DNA of 64,000 nt, taken from positions 3,175,725-3,239,724 of the forward strand of contig CM034129.1 of assembly GCA_019914995.1 (NCBI GenBank). Direction: 5' to 3'. Position 1 is the first letter of the stretch. Every line of letters begins with the position of its first letter. Positions 1 to 38,748 of the stretch are shown here, one piece after another. The translations under genes and the position numbers were made by a program. The stretch comes from Acanthochlamys bracteata. Its lineage: Eukaryota; Streptophyta; Magnoliopsida; Pandanales; Velloziaceae. A model generated the notes under the pieces. The model worked only from the letters and a program-made list of their open reading frames with translations, did no database searches and was not told where the DNA came from.

Positions 1-1812
1 GCTTAAATAAAAGGTATAATCAAGTTAGAGTTTTCATGTTTTACTATAAATTGTTGGACAGAGAATGTTTAAGGTAGGTGGTTAAAAACAGCATGTTTGC
101 TATTCTTTGTTGGAGATGTTGGTGTTTGTCTTTAGAGTGCCTCGTCGAGTTAAACATTCATTCAAAAGATGCATGAGCAGTGAGATGGATTGGATAGATG
201 GACTGCCTTGTCACATAGAGTGCATTGCATGAAATGTAGATAGCATACCTATTTGCATGCGTTGGTTACAAGGTAGAAACTCATATTAATGACTACCTGC
301 TATTTAAGCCATACTTCATTGCATGAACGATTAATAGGATAAGCTTTTATAAGCTTTAACAATATGATAGAAGCTTTCAATGCCATATGATGCCTAACAT
401 GCATTGCTATGCATGAAAAGTATACATGATAACCTTTTGCACATATTGAGTATATTAAGAAAACTCTTAATGACATCCATATGATCGCAGTTATCACTAA
501 TGTCCAGGAAATAAAAAAGGTGAGCTTCTGAACTTTCAGGGGTGTTATGTTTTCCAGTTCTTTCCTTTATTAGTAGCTATCCGTAAAGGTCCCTGCTATC
601 TGGAGAGAGAAAAAAAAACTCTTCTAGATGTCTGAAAGTAGCTGCTTTTTATGGAAGATAATAGAAGTTGTTATTGTTGAATTGCATAGAGATATTGTCA
701 TTGCCATCCGTTAGTTTTGTCTCAGTAAAGTGGATTAATGGAATCTTATTTCTGGTTTTACTACTGGTGGCACAACATGATCTGAAATATGTGCATTATT
801 GTATGAGACACATTGATAAGTATAAAAACACTGCAAATCTACAGCTATCAGTCAGGAGTTGCTAGGCTGATGGCTTTTGCATAAGATGCATGCGCCTATG
901 ATACTTCATCACTGTGAGTATCATAAAGGCATATTGTTTCAATGATCTTGAAAGCCTATTAATATGCTAATGCCAGTCAAGAAATCATTAAGGTCAAGTT
1001 TCATATTATATCTTACTTAAAAACTCTAATTGGATATTGTAAGGGTTTCTATAATCAAACTCGGTTGGGACCTTGTTGTCAGATGTTTTTTTTTTTACTA
1101 TTTACATCGCTGGAAAATTGATGAAAGGAACAAGCCTCCCCTAGAAATGTTGCTTCATCGGATTCTTCTTCAAGTTTTTGTTCAATTACATTAAATGTGG
1201 TCAGAAGTTTCCGCGGATGAAACTAATTGATCTCCTACTTTTTCATGCCTATAGTATAGAGTCATGCCGATTTCATGATTTTAGATGTAGAAATTATTCT
1301 AAATAAAATGCTGAGGACTATGAAGAAATTAAAGTGAATGGAACCATCTCTTCTTTGTACATCATAAGAGGAAGCTATGAAGAGATAGAGAGTTGAATGT
1401 TAATCCTGATATGAATCATTACGTTTAGGAGTTATAGAATCTATAGCTTATCTCTGAAGAATTATGTACTTCCTATTTGCAGTATTGTTTATTGTAATGG
1501 GATGCTATTTTTATTAGTTAACCTTTATATTTACTTGCTTTTTCTTATTAGTCAGTGGTCAAAATAACTATTGCGATTGTGAACTATCTCTCTTTAAGCG
1601 CCTTATATATGAACTTATACTAGCAATGGTCTTATTGGTTAGCCATTTTATTTAGTATTAAACTCTGTGCGGCGAGCATTATCTGGACAGATTTGAGTAA
1701 AACAAACATGACAATTGGCCTTGTCGCCATGTTTGTTTGTGCTTATATTCAAATGTATATTTTCACTAAAGCTATGAATTACCTAGTCAATTTGATGTCC
1801 TTGGCTTTCCAG
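1..1812. other. Non-genic stretch upstream of prefoldin remnant
   Basis: I see no recognisable coding exon. Short open frames of about 65 codons occur on both strands but none resembles a known protein. The last bases before 1813 read like a plant 3' splice site (pyrimidine-rich, ending in AG), so part of this stretch may be decayed intron of the prefoldin copy that follows. The upstream prefoldin exons were looked for and not found. Confidence 0.6.
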
Positions 1813-2068
1813 GAACTGAATGAAAGTTTAGAGGATGCTGGAAACGAGTTGATACTATCTGATGAGGATATGATGAGGTTTCAGATTGGGGAGGTTTTCG
1901 CCACATGCCTGGGGAAGAGGTTGAGAGCAGGATAGAGAAGATGAAAGATGATGCTAGCAAGGATCTAGAAAGATTGGCGGAAAAAAGGAATAGGTTCTTG
2001 CTCAGATGGCCGGGCTCAAGAAGATTTTGTACGGAAAGTTCAAGGACTCCAACTTGGAGGAGGATTAG
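1813..2068 (+). pseudogene. PFD4: Prefoldin subunit 4 pseudogene (5'-truncated, two frameshifts)
   Basis: Prefoldin subunit 4 is a coiled-coil subunit of the cytosolic chaperone that hands unfolded actin and tubulin to the CCT chaperonin. The stretch encodes its C-terminal half: [14 protein letters not shown] and FQIGEVF in one frame, then [14 protein letters not shown] and DLERLAEKRN in a second, then QMAGLKKILYGKFKDSNLEED and a stop in a third. Each frame change fits loss of a single base, near 1900 and near 2000. The first homologous codon follows directly on an AG at 1811-1812, as at a normal exon start, so this looks like a truncated genomic copy and not a retrocopy. The N-terminal helix is absent upstream. 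With two frameshifts and no 5' end it cannot make the normal protein. Confidence 0.85.
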
Positions 2069-3076
2069 GATCATGACTAATGAATTAACCATGCTATTGA
2101 CTGCGTATGGTGTCTTACTAGATGAATTAAACGATTTCTTTCTCAAGGTGAGGCCATATAGTGCTGATGGTGTTGTGAATTTTAAGAGCGTCCGTTTTAA
2201 TCTAGAAACGGGCTATGAATTCACCGCAGGTGCGCTTACTCATTGCTCTCATATTGCGCTACTTTTTGGTCGTCAGGTGTGAAATTGTTCTGTGAATTGC
2301 GAACGTCTACTATATTCGGAGATATTGGCGTTAAATTGTTTCAGCATTGGTACGGTTTTAATTGATCAGGTCAAAAATAGTATTATTCATGCTTAGTTAG
2401 AAACCCGGGAGGTAACTTTACAGAAAGTGATTTACAAAAAAAAAGATTAATTATAAAGAATGAGTTATATATTATAAAAAATATAAGAACTAAAGAAAGT
2501 AATCTTTTGGTGAAAATAAATTGCTTTAGGATTATGTAAAAGCCTAAGAAAGTCTAACCAAGATACATAATTTTGGACACAGCGTTCAATTTTCTCCGTA
2601 AAAGTAGTCTACTCAAAAGTTATATTTCTAGTTCGGTCTTGAATTTCCTGTAATTTTTACGGAATATATTTAAAAACGTTTCGTAGTATTTATAGAAAAT
2701 ATTTTTTAAAATAAAAAATATTTTTATTTTATTTTTAATTAAAAAATCATAAGAATAAAATAAAATTTTTTTTATTTTTTAAATTTAAAATAAAATTTTA
2801 AAATATTATATAAACTTTATTAAAAAATATGAAGTTAAAAAATTAGTAAGTGTTTTTTTAAACGCATAGCCAAATTCATCCAATAATAGGAAACTAAAGA
2901 AAGGAAAATTTTTATTGAAGTGAATCCGCACCATAAGTCTGTCGTCTCCTGTTCAAATGGGAAAATTTTGAGTCATTTTTCTTCAGATTCTTCCTCTACA
3001 TATAAAATTTGAAGCCCAGAATTAACTTCCCAACAAAAAAGAAAAGTATATCAAACCCGTTTTCTTCGAAATTGTT
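2069..3076. other. AT-rich spacer
   Basis: No gene seen. From about 2640 to 2870 the sequence is nearly pure A/T with runs such as TTTTATTTT and AAATATTT, like the AT-rich miniature elements found elsewhere in the window. The rest is ordinary spacer leading into the E2F-containing promoter. Confidence 0.6.
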
Positions 3077-3105
3077 TTTCCCGCCAAAAAGACATACTTC
3101 CCGCC
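3077..3105 (+). promoter_or_regulatory. Two E2F binding sites, probable MET1 promoter
   Basis: TTTCCCGCCAAA at 3077-3088 matches the canonical E2F consensus exactly, and TTCCCGCC at 3098-3105 is a second site 21 bases downstream. Paired E2F sites mark S-phase and DNA-replication genes in plants. Maintenance methyltransferase genes are a known class of E2F/RBR targets. A TATATTA-like stretch near 3171 and a CT-rich leader follow about 100 bases downstream. Assignment to MET1, whose coding exons begin at 11101, is inference. Confidence 0.6.
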
Positions 3106-3169
3106 ACACGGCTAAGCCTAAAAAGATCCTTGGATTCACAATCAATACTCGCCTTGCTCTATTCGCCCC

Positions 3170-3283
3170 CCTATATTACTAATTTCACCTTTTTTTTGTA
3201 AAACTCTCTCTCTCTCTCTCTCTCTCTATCGATGTCTCTCCAGCGGAGATCAACCGCCGCCGCTCTCTAGGTCTCAACTATAG
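3170..3283 (+). other. MET1: Probable non-coding first exon of MET1
   Basis: A CT-rich leader (3203-3227) and a GC-rich segment with GCCGCCGC are followed by a good splice donor, ATAG then GTTAGT at 3284. An ATG at 3232 opens only a 12-codon frame that ends at TAG (3268-3270), so it would be an upstream ORF and not the protein start. No other gene begins nearby on this strand. The pairing with the MET1 exons 7.8 kb away is inferred from the E2F sites and the absence of another candidate. Confidence 0.45.
3203..3227. repeat. (CT)n microsatellite in leader
   Basis: An uninterrupted CT dinucleotide run, typical of plant 5' leaders. A second CT run lies at about 3833-3857, inside the presumed intron. 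Confidence 0.9.
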
Positions 3284-6200
3284 GTTAGTTTGTAGTTGCT
3301 GTTTGATTGACGATCGTTGATCTTTTTTTCTTTTGTGGAGTTTGTTTAGGGCTTTGCTTGTTTTGATGAATTGTTCTAGAGCCACTTTCATCTGTGTTTT
3401 TCATTGATGCTTGTTTTTATTCTTTTCATTCATGTTATTGTTTCCATTTGATTTAGAGTAATTTCTATCGCGTATAGGGAGTTTCTGTCGCGTATAGGGA
3501 ATTTGCTAGTTGATGAAATAGATTTTCCCCTCTTTTTTCTGGGGCTATATATGTGTTGTCTATGATTATGGGTTCGTTGCTTGCTGTGGAGTTCTGTTTG
3601 GGAAAATGATCAGCAAGCGAGGCTGTTATCCCGGTCTAATGAAGTTTTCAGCAATCTTTCTCTCTACTTTTTTTCTTTTTTTTTGGTTCAAAAAACAGAG
3701 ATTGAGTATGGCAATGATTGGGAAACGGTATAAAGTTCTTGCAATTCTTGGCAAACACTTTGTTCGCTCAATCCTAGCGATTACCACAGAATTTGTCGAC
3801 TTCCCAAATCCCTGATCCGAGAGATACTGCAACCTCTCTCTCTCTCTCTCTCTCTCATATGATTGAAGGAAATTGAGCAAATGTCTTTTTTATCATTCAT
3901 ATTTTAACAATTGATAGGTTGCTTTTATACTTCAAATGTGGGGTATTTTGAGTTTTTCAATTGCTTTAAATATTGACTGGTTGCCTGTATGTGGCGTTTA
4001 GGATTACATATGATCGTGATAGACTATGTTGCGTGCTGGATTGTGCAAACATTTACAACATTGGTGCACTCTTTAGCGGTTACTTTTGTATTCTAACAAG
4101 TACCATGGCATCTTCCTTCTATGTGTAATCGCTAGAATGATAAAAATACGATTGCATTTGTCTAATAAAGAAACAACTAGCAGAAGATCTCCATAGACTT
4201 CAGCAAACAAATACCATGAAATTAATGTGTCTAGTGGTAAACCATACAACTCATCTAGATACTTTGGAGCAAGCTGTCTGTGGTGTTGAACAGAAGCTCC
4301 ACATTGTTCTTAAATGATACTGCTAGTATTGATTTCTTGTATCATCACACTCTTACCTATTCAAATAATATCTTTCATCAGTGTTGCTCTAGATTTGGGA
4401 GGGACACCTTATAGAATCCTTCATTGCTGCTTGGATTGGCTTGGAATTTTACATTGCAGAGGCACCTATGGCAAGGGATATGTACTCGACAACTTCTATG
4501 GGTTTGACTCTAGAGATGTTATTTATGATATTTCACATATAATTTTATGGCTTCCTTTCGTATCTGCCAAAATTGAATACCGCTTTCATGTAGATAGCTG
4601 CTTTTGGTAATTTAGTTGTTAAAGTTTTTCTTTGAGAAGTTTGATTATCATCCTATATTTATTGTATCAGTAAGGAGTTTTGCTTTGGTGAAGTGTAACT
4701 CCAAGGTATTGTGATGAAGTGTAACTCCTAGGTATTGTGTCACTAGTCACTAGCATTTTTAGGGCATTGTCTCTTCAAAAAGCAAATAGATAATGAGTTT
4801 CTAATTTAAACCCTTAATAATTAGCCTTCCTTAATTGAGACCACATTAGAGCTCGTTTACTACAACATTAATGCAAATGTTTGACTAGACTCCGCTTGTG
4901 CAATGATTGATGATTATATGTTGTATTTTGTAACTAATAGTAGTTTTGCTATGTCCTTGTCAATATTCACTAAAGTTTCTGATATTTCTTATCTGAGAAA
5001 CTCTTTCATAGGTGAGAAATTTACATGTTTAGGGAAAGAAATTTGATAGATAAGAATCCTATGGTGATAATGTTTGATGTCATTCTCTTGAAGTTGTCCT
5101 TTTTGACCAAAATGTTTGGTTAAGCTGCTGCCGTGGTTTGCAATACTTTTTGTTGACCATCAAAACTTATGTTTACTTGCCTTTTTGCAAGCAGTGATTG
5201 CCTAAAATAACAGGTATATGTTGTCTAGGTTACCACAGTTATACTGGAAAGTTCTTAGGCTAGTTTGTGTAAATACGAACTTCATCTTATGCCATAAACT
5301 ATCATATGCAATCAAAAGTGTGGGCATAGGATTAAATAGTATTTTGAATACAGTGAAGTAGTATATCATTAGATGTGAATAACTTGCTATTTAAAAGTGA
5401 TGAATATAATCTCTGAAATGTTCAAATAACCCTTTCTAGTTGTGATGCAACACTGCATTTTCAGATAAGTTATGTTTTTACAGATTTATAATTGAAAGCT
5501 ATGGCGATGTAACTTAAATTATGAACAAGCATGCTTATTAATTAGTTTTCCTTTATGTGACTGATGTTTTTTCTCTATGTCCCATCTAATTTTGCAATAT
5601 TGCTATTTATTACAACTCGCTGCCACATTATCATGTGGTTATGACTAGGATTTTCATCGGCGTTCGAATTTTACACTCGATCAATGTGGACACACTGGTG
5701 AAGAATGGTGTATAAACGCCATTTAGTTTGTTCTTCTCCTTGTTTTCCTGTTTAGTAAATCAGTGTTCATGAGATTTGAAACCCCAACATGCTTTTTGGT
5801 GAGTGGATGCCCTGCCACCCACCCCTTGGGTGGTTGGCCTTACTCTTTTTAGTCTATCACTTTAGACATTGTATGGTTATTTCAAGAAACAACAGACTCA
5901 TGTAGCCTTTCACATGCTGACCAGATCCATGTTTATCACTTAATCTTGCATCCTACACTGTATTTCCTTTTGTTATATGATATATTTGAGGAACTGTTTG
6001 ATGGAATTCTTTTATGACGTATTATTTTATGCTTAGGTTCTTTGGATGCTTGTCTTGTGATTGGTTTCTCGTTGATGGTATAATTGCTTTGCTTGTCTTA
6101 ATGTTGTTTTATAGCATTTAGGCAATTTTTGTTTAGTAATATTACACTGAAGTCATAAGCTTTTGTTATGCATATGAAAGATTTTGAAACACCAATTTTA

Positions 6201-6973
6201 ACACCATTTTTGAAGTGTTAAACCATCAACCGTACGAAAGATGTGGCTGAAACTGATAGCTAACCTTTGGTGCATGAGGCTACAATGTTTGTGGGAGTGA
6301 ACTAAGCAACATTTCATAAGACAAACTAGTAAATGCCTACATAAAACAAAGGAGCTCTTCCATTTTAATGGAACTATTGCTATGCTGTTAAACTAATTTC
6401 CAAGTCATGCCTGGTATGCTAAAAATTGTTGTCAAACTTATTTTTAATGTTGTGAAATTGTGTTGATAATATGACCTTTTAGAAGAATTTGAAGTTTGTT
6501 AGCCCATGATTCTTTGTTTGACCACTAATACACAAGGCTTGGAGTATGAAATAGATAGTAATTTGTTAGACGGCCACTTGAAATGCCGAAGAAGCAATGC
6601 CTTTTTTGTAGGTATATCTCAAACAAAGGCAAAACTAGTTATTATATCAAGACCATTGTTATCTCAGGCCTCTTGGAGGGAGTTTTTTAGGATTTTAAGA
6701 ACATATTATCGCTGAATAAGGCAGTATTGATGTATTTCTTAAGTGGTCTAGAGGGGCTAAATGCGTATAGCATTATGAAATCACCTATTGCATGATGTAT
6801 AGGAAAATGGAGCTGATACCCTATACCTGCAAAACCATGTGTACTCACTGGGGATGGGAAACTTTACCTCAAGTGGAGATTGGGATGGGGCAGGTATAGT
6901 AATTTCCATAACCCTCCGATGCATTCTTTAATGGGTTTAAAGAGTAAGGACGCATGGAAATGAATGGGAATGA

Positions 6974-7490
6974 TCAAGGTTATCAAAATCCTGATTTAAA
7001 TCTTAAATCCTATGATTTTACGATTTTATTTCACCAAAACGATTCCAATTTCAAGTAAAATATTTTTTGAGTAAAATCTCATCCGTATTTCGATTTAAAT
7101 TTTAATATCGGTAAGATCTCGATTTTTTTAATGATTTTATACGATTTTATTTTTGAAGAAAATTTTGTAATTAACTAGAGTCTTTTGTAAAATTTTAGAG
7201 AGTTTTCTATAAAATTTAAGAAGATTTTCTAGAAAAGTGTAATTTTGAGGAATTTTTTATAAAATATAGAGTGATTTTTATAAAAAAAATTTAAAAGAAT
7301 TTTATTTTTTTAAAAAATGTACTAAAAAATATTAGAAATTTTTTAATAAAAAATTCTTAATAGTATTAAAAAGAATTATTTATAAAATTTATTGGTATGT
7401 AAAATTTTATGATTTTATTTTAAAATCTTGATTTTACGATTCTATTCAAACGAAACGATTCTACCTAAAATTTCAATTTTGACAACGTTA
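6974..7490. mobile_element. MITE-like element with 7-bp flanking repeat
   Basis: This is an AT-rich, non-coding 517-bp element. Its ends are imperfect inverted repeats: GTTATCAAAAT near the left end and the reverse complement GTTGTCAAAAT near the right end. It is flanked on both sides by GGAATGA (6967-6973 and 7491-7497), consistent with a target-site duplication. Subterminal ACGATTTTAT and AAACGATTC motifs recur at both ends. The superfamily is not certain, since 7 bp is shorter than the usual 8 bp for hAT or 9 bp for Mutator. Confidence 0.6.
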
Positions 7491-8881
7491 GGAATGAATG
7501 TTTCCCTTTTCTAGCTTTTGGTTAGTGAAAACTTTGTTTTGATTCCCTTTCCAACTCATTATTATCTAAGATAGTTGATTCCAGTTTTCCCATCTAATTC
7601 TTTTCATTTTGAATTTTATCATAATTATCCATTATTTGATTTTGTTCCATTTTCTCTCTCCTCCTTTCACGTTATATCTATTACTTCTCCATGGCATAAC
7701 AATTTAAATATTAAATCATTTATATAAAACGTATATAGTTCTAAATCATTTTGAACTTGTAAATTTGACGTCAAACAATGGATTTGAAACTAATTCTAAC
7801 TAATTTAAGCATATCGTATCCTTTTCAATTCTAGTGTATTTGGTAAACATATTGGGAGTTATACGTATCTTGTAATATAACATCACCCGCAACTAAAAGC
7901 TTTTGTAGTTTGCTTTGTTTTGAGACTATAAAGGGGATATTATATAGTTAATCAGGCAAAATAAGGAGACATTCAGGTATCACTTGATGTAAATTGGAAT
8001 CATTAGATGGTTGAAAATGAATCATAACCACTGCATCAATAGTTTCCTTACTTTTGGGGCCTTTTATTAGAAGCATATTGCAGTAAGTTCTTATAAGGTT
8101 GTTTTATGTGCACTCCAAATTTTATAGTTGTGTATAAGTGGCATGATATTTCTGAACAAACAATCTGCTATAGGTTTATATACTCCATTTCAAGATAGAA
8201 CATTCATGTTATATAATGAGGGATCATCATATCCTAATCTTCAAAAATATTGCACCAAGTTTTGTTTATTAGCAACAAGTAAAAAATTATACAAATGCCT
8301 ATAGTAAAATATGTAACATATACCTTTTAAGTTATGATATTGCCATTTGAATAGACTTTATTCATTATTACCATTTGAAGATGTTCTTAAGTGTACTACT
8401 AAATGGAACAATTTTAGAGCTTAAAAGGATCGATGTGCGTAATAGAAGTCTGCAATCTTTGGTTTCTATAGCTCCCATATGTAACATATTTTGAAAAAGC
8501 TATATATTGCAATAAGAATGCTGCGTTAATGCAACATGGTTTCTATAAGTATTAACATACTCTAGTTTTCAAAATGGTTAGTCTCTACTATAATATTACC
8601 ATTTCTAAACTTGTCAATAAAACTCTGCATCTGCAAAAAGCTAACAATCTTGACAGACTAAAACATGATTGGTGAAACCAAGCTTTTACCAATCCCTTTA
8701 ACTCTCCCCCTTCTATCTGTAATTCCATGCAACATTACTCTGTTTCATCTCTTTCTACCTACCAATTTCTAAATTAATGATAGAGAAAATGGTTATCTGA
8801 AGGCTTGGCCCTATTCGCTTGGTTTTGCATCTAGTAGATGGAAGGAGATATGAGGTGCGAACGGGTCCTAAAGAAACCTTG

Positions 8882-9325
8882 CTAGATCATCAGAAAATTA
8901 AATTCTTTCATCCGTTCTTTTCAGATAGTAGATAGGTTCCAGATCCATAGATCCTAACAAAATTATTAGTCTACATCCATTAAAAATCTGCTCCCATCAT
9001 CTCCTCTAAATACCAAATTTGAAAATCGCAAAGTCTATTTTAGCGCAAAGGTTTTAACGGAAGTAGTTTCAAGGAAATAAATCTTGAAATTAGAAAGAGC
9101 TCAAATATTGAGGGTTCTTCGATGGTCTTGTAATGTATTCTGTCCTCGATACCAAATAAGATGAATCTATCCATCTATTGGGTAGAGGGTTTATAGTAAG
9201 CAGACATTGGCTAGTCATCGACAAGCTCCACCTTGCTGATTTTGATGTAGACAGATTTTGAGCAGTGAATTGTCTCATTGACTTAATTTTCTTCCTCTAG
9301 CAACAATGATGCAATTTGTTTTATT
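8882..9325 (-). pseudogene. MET1: Antisense MET1 fragment (decayed copy of MET1 exon segment)
   Basis: Read on the minus strand, this stretch follows the first large MET1 coding exon colinearly over about 440 bases, corresponding to 12047-12535. Shared strings include GTCTACATCAAAAT (9239-9252 against 12132-12145) and GAGGAAGAAAATT (9285-9298 against about 12069-12081). Also visible are counterparts of the segments coding [33 protein letters not shown] and IKEWMIEF. There are several in-frame stops and indels. I judge similarity by eye at roughly 70 percent, so it is an old non-functional copy. It covers part of the second replication-foci-targeting domain. No adjoining MET1 exons in the same orientation were found with confidence on either side. 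Confidence 0.85.
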
Positions 9326-9611
9326 GCCCTAAGGTAGATGGCACCTCTCGGTCCTCTCCTACATCATAGAACCACATTTACTTCAAGAATGCAATGGATA
9401 AGCATCAAGTAGCAATCAACTCTCATCGTCTCCTATTGTAGTTCCTGATACACGAATTGTTCAACTTTAGGACAAGTTTTCTCTTGAAGTAGCTCCAAAT
9501 GAACCTAAACTTGGCTCTCCTTTGGTACCTAAATTACTTGTTTTTTTTAATGGTTTTGCATTGAGGTATGTTTATTTTTGTTAAAAAGTTCTCTTTTGCT
9601 AAAGTGATGTC

Positions 9612-10190
9612 AAATAACCTATTTTTGGTATACTTCAAAACATCTGTTGGAGGTTGTTAGTCTTTTTGGTATACCTTCCCTTCTTACTTGTCGTAAAGGT
9701 CATGTTTGCATTGCATTATATCCATCTATGCTTCTGTATTAGCTGATGTTTGAATAAATAACTGCACCATATGTGCCTATTGCATGTTGTGTAGTAGAAG
9801 CACTTTTAAGCACTTGCTAACATAAGTCCAAGTACATCTACAACCGATATCTACTTTTTATTTAAGTAATAGTTACAAAACATAGAATATTTCTTTCCTA
9901 TTTATTAATCTATTTTTGGCATATTGCCATATTTCAAGGCATTCTACAGCATTATTTAATTGTTGTTAACATTTTTTGTATTGCCTTGTCTTGTTGCGTC
10001 ATCATAAAGGCCATGATTATGTTTCATTGTTCCCTTCATGCTTCTGTATTGATTGAAATTTTTAATGAATAAACATATGGAACTACTGCATGCCAACAAG
10101 TGCTTCGGACCACTTGCTAACAGAACTACATGTGCATATACATTGGATATATTCTTTTTGTTTTAAGTAACAACCATTATTTCTTTTCTA
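9612..10190. repeat. Diverged tandem duplication (~300-bp unit)
   Basis: Two diverged copies lie end to end, about 9612-9905 and 9905-10190. They share, in order, CTATTTTTGG, TAAAGG then CATG, CATGCTTCTGTATT, GAATAAA, CACTTGCTAACA and a T-rich stretch before AAGTAA. Neither copy codes for anything recognisable. Confidence 0.65.
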
Positions 10191-11100
10191 TCGCATGATG
10201 CTTCTCTAGTGCTTATATGGCAGGCTTAAATGATTCATACTAAAAGAACGCGCTAATATAAATTACTTTGAACTTGTTTCATGTAGATTTATCTTTTAAT
10301 CAATCATGAAAGCCACCATGTTTGCATTAAACATTAACATGCACCACAAGATAGGTTATGTAAGAGAATCGCTGCACCTTAAGTTCCTCATGCTCCTATG
10401 CTGAACTTCTATCCTCAACTCGTGTAAGTATGTTGCTCGGATTTTTACGCAGATTGGAATAAGATGATTTAACCAGATCCATTACGGAGTAAGAAATTAG
10501 CCTATCGATGCTTGAAAATGTTACCTTTGTGATCCTACGGACTATACTACAACTTGACAAGTAATTACGCTGTGTAGGTTCATATGTATAACAATATGCC
10601 ATTTCTGTTAATAAATCCTTAATGAATTGTTATGTACTCTTCTAGCACATAGCCTTTTCTTTCTAATTTGTGCTTTGTTTATTATAAGACTGGATGCTGA
10701 AACATTCTGTATGACAACCTCCTCTGTGGAGTATGCTCCTAGTGCTCTCTGTTTGTATGGTTACTAGTCAGGAAAATGTCAAATCTTTTGTCTTGAGAAT
10801 TATGCATGTTTAGTAATCTGAGTGTGCTTTTTAATTTTGAATCTTATCTCATCTTCTTTTTTGTTACCCCCAATAATGCAATTAAGATATGATGAATTCC
10901 AATTTAACTGCATATTTTGTCATCTGGTGTTTGTGTGTCTGTGTGTGTCTGTCTATGTGTGTCTGTGAAATTTCCTTGTAATAGCCCCTCTTTTGTCCAG
11001 TTCAGCTACTGCATTTCTTTCAACATAGAGGGTAACTGTAGTTGCTTTTCTAGTACAGTTCATTGTCTAGGCTTTTACAGTGAAGTATGCTCTCTTTCAG

Positions 11101-14100
11101 GTTCAAAGAGGAAACAAAACGGAGACGCTTCATTGAACAGAAGTAAAAAGTTTGATAATGATGATGAACTCCCAGCCAGTTCTCTGGATCAGAAGGCCAT
11201 TAGGAATGGTCACGAGCCTAGTGTGCAGAAGAGGCCAAAGCGAGCTGCTGCCTGCTCTGATTTCAAAGAAAAGTCTATCAGAATATCAGAAGAAACATCC
11301 GTGGTCGAAATTAAGAAGAATCATGTTGAAGAAGAGGAGGTGGTTGCTGTTGAGCGGACAAAACTTGGTCCTGAGGAACTTCCGCCATCTAGAAAAATTA
11401 TGGATTTTATATTGCATGATACTGATGGTAACCCTCAACCTTTTGAAATGTCAGAACTTAATGATTGCTATATTACTGCTCTTATCATGCCCATGGATGA
11501 TGACTTGGAGAAAGAGAAAGGCAGAGGTGTTAGATGTCATGGCTTTGGCCGGATTGAATCCTGGTCCATTTCTGGATATGATGAAGGTTCTCCAGTGATT
11601 TGGGTTTCCACTGAAGTTGCGGATTATGAATGTGTGAAACCTGCAAGTAGCTACAAAAGGTTCTATGACCTTTTTTATGAGAAGGCATGGATATGTGTAG
11701 AGGTGTTCAGAAAGTTGGCCAGGTCTGCTGGTGGAAATCCGGAGTTGACTATTGAAGAACTGATTGCTGGGATGGTTCGCTTTTTGAGCAGAAAGAAGTT
11801 TTCTGATGGATTATCCAGCAGAGACTTTGTGATCTCCCTCGGTGACTTTATTTACAAACAGCTGATTGGATTGGATGAGACCTCTGGCAAGAATGTTGAA
11901 AAATTGGCCACTTTACCAGCTCTTATTTCTCTAAGAGATCAATGTAGAGATAAAGTTGAAGGTAACCAGCTGGTTCAAAATGTTACCAAATCAAGCCTGA
12001 AAATTAATGAGACGCGTACTTCTGAAATCTTTGAAAATGAGGACGAAAAATTGGCACGACTACTGCAGGAGGAAGAAAATTGGAAGTTGCTCAGACAGAA
12101 CTCTCGACGCACAGGAACCAACAAGAAGAATGTCTACATCAAAATAAGCGAGGCGGAGCTTGCAAACGACTATCCAATGCCTGCTTATTATAGACCCTGT
12201 GTCCAAGAGATGGATGAATTCATCTTTTTTGACATTGAGGACAGCATATTCTACCCAGATCTTCCAAAAAGGGTCCTCAATAATTGGACACTTTATAATT
12301 CGGACTCGAGACTTATTTCATTGGAACTGCTTCCGATGAAACCATGTGCTGAAGTTGATGTTTCAGTTTTTGGATCAGGTTATATGAAAGAAGATGACGG
12401 GAGTGGATTTTGTATTGATGCTGATCCCATGCAGTCTTCTTCAAGCATGTCTAGTTCTATGGATGTTGAAGGTGTGCCAGTGTACCTGAGTGCCATAAAA
12501 GAATGGATGATAGAGTTCGGTTCTTCAATGATCTTCATATCAATCCGAACAGATGTAGCATGGTACCTTTACTCCCCTCTCGCATCTTATAGATAGCTTT
12601 AGTCCAGTAAATAGGAACACACAAAGTTCAAGTTGCTTGAACATATTTCAGTTTTTAAAACAGTGATTTGTCCTAGAACCATTGTCTAGCATGAGTACAT
12701 GAAGACTTTATATTTCTTGGTGGTTGGTAGCTTATTGCTAAATAGTATTTGATATTTGATTCTCTTGCTTTTGTAAGCATGACAATTTACCAAATGAACA
12801 AAATAACTTCCACTACCATATAGTAGAACCATCTAGGGGTCTATGCCTAATCCCATCCTTCCTGAGAGACTATTGTAGAGCCATTACAAGGTTGCTTCTT
12901 AAAAGTAACCTTCTGGCTGGACATCCTAATTGTGCAATAATATGATCAGGACCTAAAACAGTGCCTCATGAATGACTTTCGAAATAGCAAATGATGTTGT
13001 AGAATAGTGCTTTCACTTCAACTGAGCTATTGCCAGTTCAAGTGCGTGTAGTTGATTTGTTTTTTCTCAGGTGCCTTATGTGTTCTCTTGTCTTACAGGT
13101 ATAGGCTTGGGAAGCCAACAAAGCAGTATGCTCCATGGTATGAACCGGTTCTCAGGACTGCTAGGCTTGCTATAAGTATAATTACCTTGCTAAAGGAGCA
13201 AACCAGATCATCGAAGCTTTCATTCGCAGATGTGATAAAGAAAGTAGCAGATTTTAGCAAGAATCATCCTGCACATATTTCTTCAAACCTGGCATTGGTA
13301 GAGAGGTATATTGTGGTTCATGGCCAAATTATACTCCAACAATTTGCTGAATACCCTGATGATACAATTCGCAAGTGTGCCTTTCTTTCTGGCCTTTTAT
13401 GCAAGATGGAAGAGAGGCATCACACGAAACTTGTAATGAAGAAAAAAGTTGTGATGCAGAAGGAAGCAAACTTGAACCCTAATGCATCAACAGGGCCTGT
13501 AGTATCAAGAAAAAAACTGATGCGTGCTACCACAACAAAACTTATAAATAAGATCTGGGGAGAATACTACTCAAATCACTTTCTAGAAGATCTCAAGTCA
13601 GAAAATGGAGAAGAAGAAAAGGATGAAGAAGTGGAGGAAGAGCAGGACGAGAATGAAGATGAGGATGAAGAAACTGAGCCTGAACAAGAAGAGATAACTC
13701 CAACTCGCAGTTCTAGCCGCTCCCTCAAATTACAACTCAGTAGTAAGGAAATAGCATGGGAGGGAGAATCAATGGGTAAAAGGAAGTCCGGGGAGGCCCT
13801 CTATGGAAGTGCAAATGTTCGTGGAGGTCAAATTACTGTTGGTGGAGCAGTTATGATAGAAGCTGATGACTCTGATCAGCTACCAGTTATTGTATTTGTT
13901 GAATACATGTTTGAGAAACTTGACGGGACAAAAATGGTTCATGGAAGGGTGTTGCAGAGAGGTTCACAAACAATTCTCGGTAATGCAGCAAATGAAAGAG
14001 AGGTATTCATGTCCAACGAGTGTTTGGAGTTTGAACTCAGAGAGGTCAAGGAATCTGTGACTGTTGATATATGTCTTCGACCATGGGGTCATGAGTACAG

Positions 14101-17100
14101 AAAGGAGCATGCTAGTGTTGATATCGCAGATAGGGTAAGTGCTGAAGAGAGAAGAAAAAAAGGACTACCACCAGAGTACTTCTGCAAGAGCCTCTATTGT
14201 CCTGAGAAAGGTGCATTCTTTGTACTTGATCTAGAAAACCTGGGGCGAGGAACAGGGGTCTGTAAGGCCTGCAATGATAGAAGTTCTCAAGAGGCTGTAT
14301 TTAAGGTGCTTTCCAAGGAGAGCTTCTTTTACAACAATGATGAGTACACTCTCCATGACTTCCTATACGTGAGACCTGAATTTTTTGCTTCTGAGAAAGA
14401 GGACCGTGGGACCTTTAAAGCTGGAAGAAATGTTGGTCTCAAAGCCTATGTTGTTGCCCAGTTAATAGAGATTGATGTTCCACTTGTTTGTAAGAAACCT
14501 AAACCAGAGTCCACCTTTGTCAAAGTTCGGAGATTTTATAGACCTGAAGATGTTTCAATCACAAAGGCGTATACCTCTGATATCAGAGAAGTATGGATTT
14601 TGTGCAATATAAGTGCATTTTCTTTACATTCTATTATAAATATGGTTTGATTGTACTCAATACTGGTGGTTGTGGATAGGTATACTATAGCGAGGAGCTT
14701 GTTGATGTACCTGTTGAGATGTTGGAAGGAAAGTGTGAGATTAGGAAGAAAGCTAACCTTCCAAGTTTGGATCTGCCTATAGTTGTTGATCATGTGTTCT
14801 TCTGTGAATATTCCTATAGTGCTTCTACTGGAGCAATTAAACAGGTATGACAGGTACAGTTAATGATTATTTGCTTTATCACTGTGTTGACTGTATTACT
14901 TTCTGCACAGTTGCCAGCCAATGTGAAATTTGTGTCACTGATTCGTAAGGCAAGTACTTCAGTCAGGAGAAAAGGTAAGGAGAAATGCAAGGAAGGCGAG
15001 GAGAATGGTTGTCATCAATGGGAGGATTCTCATTGTGAAAGTCGACTAACCACTTTGGATATTTTTGCTGGTTGTGGGGGCTTGTCAGAGGGTTTGCAGA
15101 AATCTGGTGAGCTATTATTTTCTTGTATGTTGTACATGTCTTAATCAGAGATCTATTGTATCTATGACAACTCTTAAACTCCCAGGTGCATCACTTACAA
15201 AGTGGGCGATCGAGTATGAACAGCCAGCAGGAGAAGCGTTTAGTTTAAACCATCCTGGCACATTCATGTTTGTTGATAATTGCAATGTCATCTTAAGGTA
15301 AATCATAACTCAATTATCTTATGTAAAGATCATCGCCCGTACCCTGGGTTTCTTGGACCTTTCTCCTCTTATCGTTCGGATTTTGCCAGGGCTATTATGG
15401 CAAAGTGTGGGGATGCTGATGATTGCATCTCCACGCCTGAGGCTGATGAGTTAGCTGCAAAGCTTGATGAAAACAAGTTGAGCAATCTCCCAATGCCGGG
15501 GCAGGTGGATTTCATAAATGGAGGGCCTCCCTGTCAGGTAATGCAATTTCTGTTGTAAAACTTTTAAGAGCTTTTCACGAAATTTTCGGAGTTTGTTAAC
15601 AAATTTATCTTATCTAAACAACCTCGTTCAGGGGTTTTCAGGAATGAACAGATTTAATCAAAGCATGTGGAGCAAGGTCCAGTGTGAGATGATTCTGGCA
15701 TTTCTGTCATTTGCTGATTATTTCCGGCCACGGTTCTTCCTTCTAGAGAATGTCAGAACTTTTGTTTCTTTCAACAAAGGACAGACATTCCGCTTAACTC
15801 TTGCTTCTCTTCTAGAGATGGGTTATCAGGTTTAGATCCTTGGACCTAATATGTAATGGAAAGTTGCTCCATTTTATCTTAGTTGTTCAACTATATGCTG
15901 ATCCAGTTTGCAACCTCAACTATGCAACTTTCTTTTATTTAGGTGAGGTTTGGCATTCTTGAAGCTGGGTCATATGGAGTCTCACAGTCAAGGAAAAGGG
16001 CCTTTATATGGGCGGCGGCACCAGGGGAGATGCTTCCGGAATGGCCAGAGCCTATGCATGTATTTGCTAGCCCTGAACTGAAAATTGCTTTACCTAATAA
16101 TGTTCGTTATGCAGCAGCTCGGAGTACTGCTGGAGGTGCTCCATTTCGTTCCATAACTGTTAGGGACACTATTGGAGATCTTCCACCAGTTGAAAATGGG
16201 GCATCCAAAATTGAATTAGACGTAAGTTTGTTTCATACCAAATATTTTGTTTTATTTTGTAACATTATATGGGTGTAAATGGGCAATGGTCAATTGTCAT
16301 GATGTCTCGTAGAATCTTTATTTGGATTCAAGTTTCTGTTTCTTTCTCCATAGGAGGATTGGGTGATAAGCATTACCCTCGTTTCTTAGTTTTCTCTTTC
16401 TAGCAAGGATTGTTTACCGGTTAACATGCATGTGTTCAGTATGCAAAGTTTTCTTATATATTGTACTTCTAGGCTTAATTGTTCTCTTTAGTTGACACAT
16501 TATGCATCATTCACTAGGATTGTGTACAGTATAGCAACAAACATGTTTAACTTCTTTTTGTTTTTTAGTATTTGGACAATCCTGTGTCGTGGTTCCAGAA
16601 GCAAATAAGAGGAAACACATCTTTGTTGAATGATCACATATCCAAAGAGATGAATGAACTAAATCTCATTCGCTGCCAACGAATTCCAAAGCGTCCAGGT
16701 GCTGATTGGCGTGACCTTCCAGATGAAAAGGTATCTGCTTTTGTTTCAGCATATATGCCGTTAATTTCAACGCAAAGTCTCTGATGACTTTTTCTGCAAA
16801 ATGCAGGTGAAATTATCAGGTGGACAGATGGTGGACCTTATACCCTGGTGCCTTCCAAACACTGCAAAGAGGCATAACCAGTGGAAAGGTTTATTTGGGA
16901 GGTTAGATTGGGAAGGGAATTTTCCAACCTCCATAACAGATCCCCAACCTATGGGCAAAGTTGGCATGTGCTTCCATCCTGATCAAGACCGCATTCTCAC
17001 TGTACGTGAGTGTGCGCGTTCTCAAGTAAGCTCATATCCATTCTTTATTACTGCAACAACTGCATGTTGTTCTCATGTGTGTCGCTATGTAATGGAATCA

Positions 17101-17504
17101 TTCCAATTCTATGTGTGACATTCTAAGCATTTCCTGAAAGAGAATCTAACATAAAAGCTGTTTTTGCTATGAATTCTTCTCGGATAGCAATAAAGTAATG
17201 AAACAGATAGCTAGTTGATGCTGTCATATCAAACTAATTGTGGTCCTTTAAATAAAGTGGTGCAAGCGATGCATGTTTGCATACTCATGGCATCAATATG
17301 GTAGTATCTATTTGCATTGTTTTACTCAGCTTACTCTACACCAAATTTCACCTTTTAATGCAGGGTTTTCCAGATAGCTATAAATTTTGTGGCAACATTC
17401 AGAACAAACATAGACAAATTGGGAATGCTGTGCCTCCTCCACTGGCATTTGCACTGGGAAGAAAACTCAAGGAAGCTACTGATTCAAAGTTAAGTACAGG
17501 TTGA
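11101..17504 (+). CDS. MET1: Maintenance DNA (cytosine-5)-methyltransferase, MET1/DNMT1 type (initiator exon not located)
   Basis: This nuclear enzyme copies CG methylation onto the daughter strand after replication. Exons: 11101-12562, 13099-14590, 14680-14844, 14911-15106, 15186-15297, 15390-15537, 15632-15829, 15943-16221, 16569-16730, 16807-17025, 17364-17504. The frame closes across all ten introns, giving about 1523 residues plus a short missing N-terminus, close to the roughly 1534 of Arabidopsis MET1. Domains in order: basic N-terminus ([18 protein letters not shown]), two replication-foci domains (about residues 90-480), an acidic linker near 13600-13700, BAH1 (about 734-870), BAH2 (about 894-1045), and the catalytic domain. 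Catalytic motifs: [25 protein letters not shown] with the nucleophile cysteine (split by an intron after the Q), [40 protein letters not shown]. The first exon enters in codon position 2, so the initiator exon ends one base into a codon. It is apparently intact. The reading from 10917 through the GT-rich tract is intron, not protein. Confidence 0.95.
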
Positions 17505-20291
17505 TATATTACTTGCAGTTTATCTGCTCACATTTGTACATAAACCATAGGGCACCATTCGCGCATCATCATGTACAATTTTCTTGGAGTACGCGCTGCG
17601 GATGACAGCTGCGTTAAATGACTTGAGGAATTCCAACCTTTTTAGTGAGTGCAAAAGTTTTGGGGTGTCAGATTTGTAATATACCTTTTCGAGAGCGGCG
17701 AAATTCTGATATAATGTTAAATTGACATTGTTGAACTTTTATTTCCTCGGAAGAACATCTTGGAAAATGCCCTATTGACATTGTAAACTGACGTTAAGTG
17801 TTGATACTGATTTATGATAGGAATGGCATTTGTTTTTCATCTCTTTCTCCGCTTATAATGAGGAGCATTACTCGTAAGTTGCTTCGTTCTTGTTATTTAA
17901 GGCTTGTAAAATGAAGTTTTATTAAAGTGTAGTTTGGTGAGAAATAGAGTTAGAGTGGTAATTAAAAAACGTGGAGTTTGGTATGAAGTAGAAGTAGAAG
18001 TAGAAGTAAATTTTGGGTGATAATTAAAATTTATGAATTTAGTCAAATTTAAAATCTAAAAATAGAAATTAGAGTTTCTTGTAATCGAAATAATCAAATT
18101 TTGTTTAGCTGTCTGGAAGTAATAATAAAATAAAAATTTTTTAAATAAAAATATTTTAGAATATTCAAAAAATAAGTTTTATTTTTATTTTAAAAATTAT
18201 ACAATCTTTTAATACTTTTAAAATTTTTAAATAAATTTTATAATATTATAAAATATTTATTAAAAATTTTAAAATAGAAGCTTGAAATAACAAGTAGTTA
18301 GAACATCAGTACCAAACGTCATCTAAATTTTGCGGCCATTTAGAGTGGGACAAGGATATTTGGAATACTTTTTCACTATTTTTTATTCCATAAAAGTATT
18401 CTATATTTTTTAGTAAATATTTATAAATATTTTTATAAAATTTATTTATAATTTGTAAAGTATAGAAAAAATATATATAGTAAGATCTCATTATTATTTA
18501 TTTATATTTTTTTAAAAATATTTTTATATTAAAAAAATTATTTTGTAAATACTTCAAAACGTTCAAATAGACTAGTATTCGTGTTCTTTTCCTATGCAAC
18601 TTTTCCTTCATGAATGGGCTCTAGAGAAGCCAAAGAGCCCAGAACCTGAGCGCATCTGGACTCTGGAGTCACGGGACGTCGACGTTTATATATAATAAGA
18701 GTGGTACTGCAATGTTGCTTCCTTTGCTAGTCTATCGGTTTATCTACTTTCTTTTTGTAAGGAATAACAATGATTTTCTTTTTCTAAAGTCTGTATTCTG
18801 TCTTATTGCTACTGGTTTCCAACACATGGTTGCTTTTATGTTCTCATCATTTATTTACAGAGTTCAGAATTTAGGTTCAAACTTTGATTTATGCTGCATT
18901 GACTGTACATCACATCGATTTACTACAGAAATCTAGAGCTCATGACAATTGCAAAGCATTCAGAATAATTCTTAAGTATCATGATTTGAATGTTGTCAGG
19001 ATATATTTTAAACGTATATATGTTCCTGGATCTGTTTTTTATTGCAGCTAGATCATAGGTGAAACAATTTGTTTCGAGAATGAAACACTATCAGAAATTA
19101 AGTAGAAAGCCTTTCTATATGTTTACAGGCATGTACACAGTTTCAAAGACCTAGATGTCGATAACTCTTTATGTTCCCTGCAATAAAGGAGGGGAAGAAA
19201 ACAAGGACTTCTTAATTCAGGTTGAATACCAAGAACTGTGAGACTTAGAGATACATATCGCACAATTCTTGGAAAAGTTCCATCTTGGTATTGCACTTGT
19301 TCTGGTTTAGCACCTTTCCCTCTCGAATCTTTATGATTGATTTCTCCATTTTGTGTATAATCCATAATTTCCAAGTATATTTTTGAAAGGATCTTTTATC
19401 TACTTTATGGTAGTTGAAATCATCCCCTCTTACTTGGACAACAAAAGTCGAAAGTGGTTGTTTGTATTTGAGCAGGTTTTGGGAATCAAAACCTACATAT
19501 GACTTGGAAGAGGAAGACTTCTTAGCTGTGATGACTTGTTATGCACTGAATACCCTCACTCAGTCTCCAGAGTGTTGTGGTTCCTTGTCAGAATTCTCAC
19601 ACGGCATAATTATTGTATCTGTGATTTGTTTTTCTGCAAATATGCACAACTTCCTGCTGTAAGATAACTCATTCACTATCTAAATGTCAATTGCATTATC
19701 CATTCCTGCAATCTCAGTATTCAATGAAGTGCATGTTTTTGTTGTGGGAAGCTTGTCCTTGAGGTCACTGCTATCAAAGAGACATCTCAAAATCTCTATC
19801 TTAAGTTCACTTCCACAATATGTATTTTTTACTAGATAAAATGTAGTCTAGATCAAATCTGAAAGCAACTGCTGTGTTATCTAAACTAAGAACTAACTAT
19901 TGAAAAGTTTGAGTTGATCTGAGTTGAAGAGAAAAAAAAGCGTCGATGCAAGAGAGTGGTGATTGTGGGTACAGACTCTGATGGTTAAGCAATTGAATTC
20001 ATTTCTGTCATCTACTTTTCAGTAGTTGTGATTATGGCTGGTTTGTTGATGCCTAGAAATTCTACCTCTTCGATCATCTAGTTGGAATGTTTCTGTGATG
20101 AGGGTTGCACCCAATCTCATTTCATGAAAAAATATTGAGGTCTTATTTAGGATTTAGGATCTGCTATGACTTGTTATTGCACATTTCTTAGTAATTTTTC
20201 TCGTATGCTCTCCCCCTGTAACATATCTTTACGAACTTTTGATATAATAACTTCTTTGGATAACAAGTAAACGCAGTCTGTTGCTTAAACA
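17505..20291. other. Spacer downstream of MET1
   Basis: This holds the MET1 3' UTR, then AT-rich patches at about 18020-18300 and 18360-18560. The first is bounded by GTTTGGTA near 17976 and its complement TACCAAAC near 18311, suggesting a miniature element. Open frames at 18712-18936 and 19414-19662 match no family I know. No gene called. Confidence 0.55.
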
Positions 20292-25000: not shown

Positions 25001-25160
25001 AAAAAAACTCATGGAGAAATCTCATATGGGTAGCTGTTACTTTCTTGATCTCTACTTTAAAGTTTCTCCTCTTTTTTTCCAACAGATGTTTTTGTTGGCT
25101 GCCATGAAATGATGAAGTGAGAATCTGTAGCTGTTGGGGAAGGTTCAACATTGGTGTTTT
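22080..25160. other. Spacer and 5' region of the WRKY gene
   Basis: No gene seen up to about 24700. There is a GAT trinucleotide run near 22943 and AT-rich tracts at 22740-22800 and 23150-23460. From about 24720 to 25160 the sequence is probably the WRKY promoter-proximal region and leader. It contains a 126-codon open frame (24727-25107) rich in F, L and C, with no recognisable domain, and T-rich runs. Confidence 0.5.
23800..23878 (-). promoter_or_regulatory. Two W-boxes upstream of the WRKY gene
   Basis: On the minus strand TTGACT occurs at about 23799-23804 and again at 23873-23878. TTGAC followed by C or T is the DNA site bound by WRKY proteins, and clustered W-boxes are common in WRKY promoters. 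They lie about 1.3 kb before the start codon, so a role in auto- or cross-regulation is only inference. Confidence 0.35.
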
Positions 25161-26745
25161 ATGGTCGGAATGGAAGAGGTCGAAGAAGCTAACAGAGCTG
25201 CAGTTGAAAGCTGCCACAGAATTCTAACCCAGCTTTCCCATCCTCATGACGACCCTCATCAGTCGAGAAATTTAGTTGCTGACACTGGCGAAGCTGTTTC
25301 AAGATTTAAAAGAGTAGTTTCATTGCTTGGAAACAGTCTTGGACATGCCAGAGTTAGAAGATTGAAGAAACCTCAGTCACCATTCAATCATAAGATTTTC
25401 TTGGATAGCCCTGTAGCCACAAGACCTAGCTCTACTAATCAGTCTAATCCTATCAAGCCTCTTCAACTGTTTCCTAGGAATGTTATCCTTGGCCAAGGAC
25501 AAGAGATTGATTCTAATTCGAAGATCCCCAACAATTTGTTCCTTAAGAACCCGATTCCTGAAAGCGGTTCAAATTCTTATTCTAAGAACAGCATCCACTT
25601 AGGGACCAGTCCACATCACTTCCAGTTCTTGCAACAGCAACAACAGCAGAGCAACCAGCAGGTGTTCCAGGTTCAACAGCAGCAGATTAAGTTTCTGGCA
25701 GCGGATGTGTTCAAGAGGAGCAGTAGTGGGATTAATCTAAAGTTCGATAACTCAAGCTGCACTCCTACTGTGTCATCTGCTACAAGGTCGCTTGTTTCGT
25801 CACTGAGCATGGATGGCAGTCTCACGAGCTTAGACGGTAACCACTTGATTGGACCACAATCTTCGGATCCTGGAGCAATGCCACATCCACATAAGAGAAA
25901 ATGCTATGGAAAGGGCGAGGATGGCAGCGGCAAGTGCGCGGCAAGTGGAAGGTGCCATTGTTCGAAAAAGAGGTTGGCTCCAATACTTGGAAGAAATAGT
26001 TATTCAGTTTTTATTAAGTGTCTATATCTGTTTTTAAGATTTTCTTCTGCGAATGTGGATTACAGGAAGCTGAGGGTGAAGAGATCAATTAAGGTTCCAG
26101 CGATCAGTAACAAGCTAGCAGATATACCCCCTGATGAGTATTCATGGAGAAAATATGGTCAGAAACCAATTAAAGGCTCTCCCCATCCTAGGTACTGCAT
26201 ATTCGTAAAATTATTACAATCTCAGCTTTGTGATTTAACCATGATGCTACTTTAGAAGTTTATTGCGACAAAGCAATACCTTACGATGTCATTAATGATC
26301 CAAAGCAAAATGCTTGCAATAGCAATCCTACTAGGTCTATGTCCCCCTGCAAAATTATTAATGACAATATGGAGCTAGGATCCGCATATTCTTTTAGTTA
26401 TTCAAGTGGAAGGTTTTGGGTTTGTTTTGTTGATAAGCAAAGTTCAACATTTGTTCTTAGCTGGTTAAAATTTTTAAATTGATAAAACCGCGCATACTGC
26501 TGCTTCTTTCATAGCATCTGATTATAATCATCTTCATGTCTCCTGTTATGTGAACTTTTTTGGAATATGTGAATGAAGAAAAATGTGCATAATATTGCAG
26601 AGGTTATTACAAATGTAGCAGTTTAAGAGGCTGCCCTGCAAGGAAACACGTTGAGAGGTGCTTGGATGATCCTTCAATGCTGATTGTTACATACGAAGGC
26701 GAGCACAGTCACACCAGGTTGCTGACTCAAACTGCGCAAGCTTGA
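25161..26745 (+). CDS. WRKY transcription factor, group IId (WRKY21/39/74-like)
   Basis: This nuclear DNA-binding protein recognises W-boxes. Group IId members also bind calmodulin. Exons: 25161-25972, 26066-26191, 26601-26745, giving 360 residues with the frame closed. The N-terminus [18 protein letters not shown] is typical of the WRKY21/39/74 branch. [10 protein letters not shown] (residues about 70-80) is the HARF/calmodulin-binding region. A polyglutamine-rich stretch sits near 155-180. The basic plant zinc cluster ([12 protein letters not shown] to CHCSKKRK) precedes the WRKY domain with WRKYGQK and a C-x5-C-x23-H-x-H zinc finger. The last intron falls at the conserved site between PHPR and GYYK. 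Translation may start at 25161 (MVGMEEV) or at 25170 (MEEVEE), and the second matches relatives better. The reading from 25134 depends on a TTG and was not used. Confidence 0.93.
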
Positions 26746-36779: not shown

Positions 36780-37816
36780 ATGGCGATAGAAGAAACAGCG
36801 GCGGCGGCGACTGCAGCGGAGACGGCGACGGAAGCAACTGATACCGATGGTGGGAATCCGAAATCGAAGAAGGCTTCATCGAAGAAGGAAAACAAGGCAA
36901 AGAAACCTGCTGCTCCACGTAAGCGTTCTCCATCTGCTCACCCGCCTTACCTCGAGGTATATATACTTGTTCGATTTTGTTCCAAATTATTTAATTAGAT
37001 TGAGATTTGATTGGTTTCATCGGATTAAATTTGGTTGCTTAGTGTTTTAGTGTTGTTGATTTTGGGTGTTAGATGATTACGGAAGCGATTGCGGAGATGA
37101 AGGAGAGGACTGGTTCGAGCCAGTACGCGATTAACAAGTTCATCGAAGACACGTACAAGGACAAGCTGCCGCCAAATTTTAAGAAATTGCTTCTGGTTCA
37201 GCTGAAGAAGCTTACGGCTTCAGGCAAGCTTACAAAAATCAAAGCCTCTTACAAGCTTCCTTCTGCTAGTTCTAGAAAAGCTGCAGCTTCTCCGGTGAAG
37301 AAACCTGCTGCCTCTACCACTGCTTCTAAGCCCAAGACAGTTGCCAAACCCAACACCAAAGCTAAAGCCAAGACTGCAGCCGCCAAACCGAAACCAAAGA
37401 CCGCTGCTGCTGCAAAACCTAAGCCCAGGTCGAAAGCAATGACTACTGCTGCTGCTTCTGCAAAGTCGAGATCTACTTCTGCGGCGAAGCCGAAGACAAC
37501 TGCAGCAGCAGCGAAGGCGAAAGCTAAAGCTCCACCACCAAAACGGAAAGCTCTGGCGGCTAAAGCTGTGAAGCCGAAGTCGTCAACTGCTCGTCCGGCG
37601 AAGGCAGCGAAGACTTCTGCTAAAGACACTCCCGGGAAGAAGACTTCTGCTGTCGCAGCAAAATCTAGTGCTGCAGGAACAAAGAAGAAGGCTGCAGCAC
37701 CGGTTGCTAGGCGGCCTAAGAGCGTCAGATCGGGAACTACTCGGTCGACTTCCGGCAAGGCTCCAGCGGCGGCAACAAAGAAGAAGGCTCCAGCGAAGCG
37801 TACAAGGAGAGTGTAA
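36780..37816 (+). CDS. Linker histone H1
   Basis: Histone H1 binds nucleosomal linker DNA, compacts chromatin and limits access of DNA methyltransferases. Exons 36780-36956 and 37073-37816 give 306 residues. After an Ala/Thr/Glu-rich start and a Lys-rich stretch comes the winged-helix globular domain, about residues 50-120 (HPPYLEMITEAI, KERTGSSQYAINKFIE, LPPNFKKLLLVQLKKL, KLTKIKASYKLP). The remainder is a long Lys/Ala/Pro tail with repeated AKPKPK and TAAAAKAKAK motifs and S/TPxK-type sites, ending KRTRRV. The single intron lies inside the globular domain, as in other plant H1 genes. Length and layout match canonical plant H1.1/H1.2. The long open frame on the opposite strand (37758-37249) is a codon-bias shadow. 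Confidence 0.96.
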
Positions 37817-38010: not shown

Positions 38011-38748
38011 GCATAGTAAAAATCGGATTGAATATCGAATGGATTGAACATTGAATTGAAAAATTATTCTGGTCATAATTTTTGAATTAAATTATCGGAT
38101 CAATCGATTGAATTATAGCATTAATAATATTAAAATATTTTTAATTAATAATAATTATTATAATAAAAAATTTATTATTAAGAATACTAATAATAATAAT
38201 AATTAAAATTTATAAATAAAAATATTAAAAAAAATTAATAGATTAGAAAAAAATAAAATATAAAATAAATAAATCATAAAAGAGATATAATTAATTTTTT
38301 TAAATATATATATTTGCGTCTAAATATTTTTATAATATACGAAATTTTAAAATTACTAATAATTAATATTTACAAATAAGAAATAATTAATTATATTTTT
38401 GTATTATCATATTTAAATGCTAAATTTAAATTACATATCATTTTTCAATATAAAAACTATAAATAATTATTTTTATATTAAATATATTATCAATTTAAAA
38501 TTTTTTAATTAATTTAAAAAAATTTTTTTTAATTAATTTAAAAAAAAATTTTTTAATTAATTTAAAAAAAAATTTTTTAATTAATTTAAAAAAAATTTTT
38601 TTAATCAGATTTGACTTATTAAAATTTAAAGATCAAAGATCGGATTGATTACATAAATAATTTTTTTACAAATTTAGACCGATTTACTGTCTGAGTCAAT
38701 AATTTTTAGATGGATCCGGACGGATTGGTCCGAGTTTGACAACTATGA
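38011..38748. mobile_element. MITE-like element with internal AT palindrome array
   Basis: The ends are imperfect inverted repeats: CATAGT followed by an ATCGGA motif at the left, and the complement of CATAGTTGTCAAACTCGGA at the right. TTTTAG occurs just outside both ends (38005-38010 and about 38749-38754), a possible target duplication. The terminal motif TTGTCAAA is shared with the element at 6974-7490. The interior is about 740 bp of A/T-rich non-coding sequence. Confidence 0.5.
38494..38605. repeat. Tandem array of palindromic AT units
   Basis: Four or so near-identical units of about 27 bases, each with TTTTTTAATTAATTTAAAAAA. Each unit is nearly self-complementary and lies inside the element at 38011-38748. 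Confidence 0.85.

Follow-up and report, generated by a model that had tools for sequence, protein, structure and literature searches.

Does a stretch of a gene that lies backwards within one of the gene's own introns still act on that gene, or is it debris? The question is raised by the window, a 64,000-nucleotide stretch of the genome of Acanthochlamys bracteata (contig CM034129.1) that contains MET1. A sequence-only reading of the window had proposed that the long first intron of MET1 holds an antisense piece of the gene's own exon, that the unspliced transcript thus carries an inverted repeat of itself, and that the resulting hairpin might form a self-sensing loop; it allowed that the piece may equally be an inert relic. 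Our results favour the last of these suggestions. Whatever its origin, the antisense block at 8884-9503 is very probably an inert relic derived from MET1. Among the papers listed by a literature search, judged by title and the beginning of the abstract, none dealt with an antisense piece of MET1 within a MET1 intron.

We aligned the reverse complement of the relic with the MET1 exon, as the earlier reading had suggested, and the similarity was far from absent. Local alignment of the minus strand of 8800-9330 paired 8884-9317 with exon positions 12048-12534 colinearly, with 324 of 433 aligned bases identical (75%) and a score of 140.5. The top score among 120 control alignments, made from 60 overlapping intron starts on both strands, was 19. 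The colinear match read by eye between 8882-9325 and 12047-12535 is therefore real, and the estimate of about 70% identity was right in outline but not as a figure. Identical strings had been put at 13-14 bases; the longest in the local alignment runs to 15 bases. Gapped BLASTN of the core of this piece against the exon matched 212 of 291 columns (E = 2e-47), and the best ungapped stretch pairs 9136-9253 with 12131-12248 (118 bases, 81%).

The arm of about 440 bases that had been described is only the first of two pieces. A second piece had been missed; it aligns with the same exon at 131 of 178 bases (74%) with a score of 56.3, again well above the controls. In the copy's sense direction piece 2 comes before piece 1, and the two assignments overlap by 2 bases. 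The whole block, about 620 bases, thus consists of two partial copies of the MET1 exon placed head to tail, some 2.7 kb from their template, a distance that had been given correctly. Translation of the relic match runs into two TAG and two TAA codons. With its similarity to a parent gene, its broken frame and its relaxed constraint, the block is a decayed partial gene copy. An antisense coding gene at this position was rejected on the broken frame. A known RNA family was likewise rejected, as the whole window gave no match to an Rfam family at the gathering score, a search that a new family would escape.

Table 1. Features of the MET1 region, in window coordinates
Feature	Position	Strand	Remarks
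Two E2F-like sites	3077..3105	+	TTTCCCGCC from 3077, TTCCCGCC from 3098; pattern scan
Antisense relic, piece 1	8884..9317	-	Decayed copy of MET1 exon 12048-12534
Antisense relic, piece 2	9316..9503	-	Decayed copy of MET1 exon 12317-12503, head to tail with piece 1
Diverged direct tandem duplication	9653-9947 and 9962-10240	+	Same intron; 199/272 identical, score 74.4; not part of the relic
MET1 exon with source stretch	11101..12562	+	Open frame 11103-12560; putative acceptor before 11101
Source stretch inside MET1 exon	12048..12534	+	Linker and start of second DNMT1-RFD (probable domain placement)

The exon that was copied has DNA (cytosine-5)-methyltransferase 1 as its top match among solved structures (E = 4.4e-131). 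A domain search placed DNMT1-RFD in two stretches of it (E = 1.7e-59) and a BAH domain in the exon that follows. Of the 486 residues translated from the exon, piece 1 corresponds to roughly 316-477. The exon's frame, followed back to its upstream stop, offers no ATG in the interval 10908-11103, and MET1 therefore needs one or more exons further upstream. The placing of the relic in an intron holds, but the sequence leaves a range of possible starts for that intron. A mechanical search, restricted to exons with a final G ahead of a GT, returned 27 candidate first coding exons, of which 22 lie upstream of the relic, 2 within it and 3 downstream. None of the 27 has a full GTAAGT donor. With three candidates downstream, a MET1 start beyond the relic may also be compatible with the search.

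An E2F promoter had been proposed near 3.2 kb. A pattern scan of 1-12000 found the two E2F-like sites, of which only the first (3077) fits TTTSSCGC, and their role as the MET1 promoter is likely. It is also likely that the relic is transcribed within the MET1 pre-mRNA. In what is probably the 5' leader, 3232-3270 forms a short upstream frame of 12 codons from ATG to TAG.

We searched the genome (195.5 Mb in 557 contigs) for further copies. The query 8882-9325 matched itself and the MET1 exon, while 9316-9560, 8550-9000 and 9560-10400 each matched only itself, in a search insensitive to diverged copies: the piece 2 query missed the MET1 exon that it matches at 74%. A dispersed repeat was rejected because no further copy of the relic or its flanks was found, within that sensitivity. 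The protein of the MET1 exon, searched against the genome, matched a diverged gene on contig C18 besides MET1 itself and the relic. The C18 gene is 34% identical to MET1 in this exon and 48% in the one that follows. The alignment scores rule out this paralog as the source of the relic, as piece 1 scores 140.5 with MET1 against 23.7 with the paralog, and piece 2 scores 56.3 against 15.3. The C18 gene itself (L009, C18:1318000-1327999) is of a diverged DNMT1 type with long open exons, and is possibly a second maintenance methyltransferase.

Decay has reached all codon positions. Piece 1 differs from the exon at 30/149, 35/145 and 44/139 of codon positions 1, 2 and 3, and piece 2 at 15/59, 13/60 and 19/59. 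Pooled, the differences are 93/413 at positions 1 and 2 against 63/198 at position 3 (Fisher p = 0.017), a pattern that fits free decay of the relic together with mostly silent change in the working exon. Piece 1 has 19 deletions and 1 insertion, piece 2 has 4 of each, and some of these indels break the frame. Changes from C to T and G to A outnumber the reverse by 44 to 23 in piece 1; the corresponding counts for piece 2 are 9 and 8. Past methylation, or a drift towards the AT-rich composition of the intron, could account for the excess in piece 1. There is no clear loss of CpG, the observed/expected ratio being 0.50 in the relic and 0.53 in the source. The Jukes-Cantor distances of the two pieces from the exon are 0.31 and 0.33. 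At rates of 5e-9 to 1.5e-8 substitutions per year, a hand estimate suggests that the relic is roughly 15-50 million years old.

The two pieces share 153 ungapped sites. Piece 1 has the base of the exon at 112 of them and piece 2 at 116, and the two pieces are alike at 101. Neither piece was therefore copied recently from the other, and the counts fit two copies taken from the exon that decayed separately afterwards. Sixteen of the 153 sites differ from the exon in both pieces, where 9.9 are expected under independent decay, and this excess leaves room for some shared history of the pieces or for change in the exon. At 10 of the 16 both pieces have the same differing base, 5 of which would be silent, too few for reconstructing the state at copying. 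The C18 gene served as an outgroup. Codons whose residue is common to MET1 and C18, a choice that biases towards a MET1-like outcome, contain 51 differences; C18 has the MET1 base at 42 of these, the relic base at 2 and neither base at 7. In the remaining codons it was uninformative, with 29 MET1-like, 30 relic-like and 31 neither.

Inverted pairs are not peculiar to MET1. Twenty-one other 10-kb loci of the same genome, a non-random sample of 210 kb, gave 19 inverted-repeat rows. Dropping 15 with a first-arm G+C below 0.28 and 1 with a spacing above 5 kb, limits that were set after the rows had been seen, left three: L014 (287 columns, 76%), L028 (138, 70%) and L030 (335, 65%). The first is stronger than the relic core. 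Inverted pairs of relic-like strength are therefore present at other loci, with one of matching strength in 210 kb. Closer by, the tandem duplication lies 150 bases from the relic. The stretches 7121-7367 in the MET1 intron, 17998-18569 beyond MET1 and 38111-38595 are AT-rich and mutually about 61-63% alike, and may represent either an old repeat family or merely a shared composition. Among the neighbours, the open frame 25131-26255 holds Plant_zn_clust and the start of a WRKY domain, both in keeping with plant DNA, and 37073-37816 a linker-histone domain.

Repair of chromosome breaks can leave templated or filler insertions, in which copied sequence, sometimes inverted, is joined from several pieces at short overlaps. 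We lean towards such a repair as the origin of the block. Two adjacent pieces of one MET1 exon would have been copied in reverse into an intron of the same gene as a break was repaired on the nearby exon, with one template switch, and the block would then have decayed through substitutions and small indels. The 2-base overlap of the pieces is a weak sign of this. The likeness to templated break insertions would lie in inverted copied pieces with a short overlap. In published work on such insertions (PMC11724301, PMC5217109), the inverted duplications of a yeast study are reported as mostly 5-34 bp, whereas the MET1 pieces span 487 and 187 source bases.

Delivery by a mobile element, or reverse transcription of a piece of MET1 mRNA, would leave an equally inert fragment, and we consider this route rather unlikely. 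The source lies within a single exon, so that a spliced template is possible, and a diverged element could have escaped the genome search, just as the exon escaped the piece 2 query. However, no further copy of the relic or its flanks turned up there. A comparison of 8301-8884 with 9504-10600 found one perfect inverted match of at least 11 bases, a chance-like one of 11 bases, although the ends of an element may have decayed. There is no T run beside 8884, the side on which the tail of a minus-strand retrocopy is expected; a T run near 9541 flanks the opposite end of the block. The antisense orientation next to MET1 would also suit the vestige of a complete second copy of the gene lying inverted, but this is extremely unlikely and we rejected it, as no other antisense exon was found in 2901-11100. 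A translated search of that region with the next exon (from 13100) gave nothing at E < 0.4, and blastn against 11101-18000 gave no antisense stretch at E < 0.1 besides the two pieces, exons beyond 14.7 kb being compared at the DNA level only. The same blastn comparison gave a same-strand match at 7181-7235 (55 bases, E = 0.009). MET1 residues 290-305 also matched 10715-10668 on the minus strand, but weakly (E = 1.2), and this was taken as chance.

If the block is transcribed, it could still pair with the exon in the unspliced transcript. Cofolding 8884-9503 with the exon in silico gave a gain of -143 kcal/mol over separate folding and 340 intermolecular pairs, against -6 to -18 kcal/mol and 28 to 130 pairs for nine control intron stretches. 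The minimum-energy fold of 8884-12534 contains 331 arm-exon pairs (291 Watson-Crick and 40 G-U), divided among 54 helices, the longest of 18 pairs and none from piece 2, and closing a predicted loop of about 2.7 kb. This modelling suggests that a long arm-exon hairpin is energetically possible. If the block is inert, the fold also carries a caution, that a spectacular predicted hairpin can be obtained even from arms that are only 75% identical. Plant microRNA genes are recognised by a 21-nt duplex with few mismatches within a compact foldback. Here no more than 5 positions on each side are unpaired in 209 of the 599 windows of 21 bases, but the loop spans about 2.7 kb.

Neither of two tests suggests that the pairing has been kept. 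Transitions that retain a G-U pair number 46 against 38 that break a pair (p = 0.45), which is no significant bias. With a gain of -146.2, piece 1 forms a weaker duplex than any of 160 simulated decayed copies (mean -182.8, SD 17.1), which carried the same number and kinds of substitutions (strand-symmetric) and deletions in random places, the single insertion being left out; the counts came from the optimised alignment, in which real divergence is understated, and the comparison is tilted accordingly. What can safely be concluded is that there is no sign of maintained pairing, which is not to say that selection has acted against it. Of the self-sensing loop first proposed, the inverted repeat and a possible hairpin stand and maintained pairing finds no sign. 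The decay at all positions, the duplex weaker than every simulated copy and the lack of an Rfam match favour the alternative that the same reading had offered, an inert relic.

A working loop would require the nascent MET1 transcript to fold the relic onto the exon and a Dicer-like enzyme to cut the hairpin, giving small RNAs that lower MET1 or methylate the locus. We think this very improbable. The predicted arm-exon pairing, with its gain far beyond the nine controls, is strong for arms so diverged and would supply many 21-base windows with few unpaired positions, the E2F-like sites lie upstream of the relic, and the C-to-T excess of piece 1 is in the direction that methylation would give. 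A natural VIM inverted repeat in Arabidopsis Cvi-0 is also reported to yield siRNAs against the same pathway (PMC13213937). Against this stand the many short helices and the wide loop, the lack of a pair-keeping bias, a duplex weaker than in every simulation and the absence of clear CpG loss; moreover the antisense arm, being intronic, would be lost on splicing. Just as improbable is a feedback in which, where splicing is slow, an intron-exon hairpin of about 330 pairs is cut to small RNAs or holds splicing up, and MET1 output is thereby restrained when transcription of the gene increases. An effect on splicing alone, in which the pairing would loop out the acceptor at 11100 and retard or change removal of the long intron with no small RNAs involved, is not at all likely either. 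The predicted pairing does enclose that acceptor, but places it in the loop, not the stem, and the pairing partner is transcribed 2.7 kb later and, again, shows no sign of having been maintained. The inert relic therefore remains our preferred reading: splicing would discard the block along with the intron, and it most likely has no effect; it would then be a tidy example of intron growth through local copying.

How does the relic compare with systems that are known to work? An intron of DCL1 contains miR838, an intronic foldback that acts on its own pathway, and young MIRNAs originate through inverted duplication of target gene sequence. These are compact foldbacks with observed small RNAs, whereas the MET1 relic has a loop of about 2.7 kb and is known from its sequence. 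The intron-split microRNA of Solanaceae is similar in that intron sequence separates the pairing arms in the transcript (PMC11706861). There, as reported, the intron lies between the arms and must be removed for efficient processing (PMC11706861), whereas in MET1 one arm is itself intronic and would be lost with the intron.

The nearest living case is the VIM4-VIM2 inverted repeat of Arabidopsis thaliana Cvi-0, which is reported to make siRNAs and to lower CG-maintenance genes (PMC13213937). Like the relic, it consists of inverted copies within a gene of the CG-methylation maintenance pathway, and a transcript hairpin has been proposed for it (PMC13213937). The two VIM genes are described as 99.86% alike from start to stop codon, in a repeat of about 6.4 kb that has a middle segment of 50 bp and gives read-through transcripts (PMC13213937). 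The MET1 block has no such near-perfect long arms; it is a 75% copy broken into short helices, within the intron of one gene and with a 2.7-kb spacer, whereas VIM4-VIM2 comprises two neighbouring genes with observed siRNAs (PMC13213937). Were the relic active after all, it would form a self-limiting circuit in the main gene for CG-methylation maintenance, comparable to the natural VIM4-VIM2 case.
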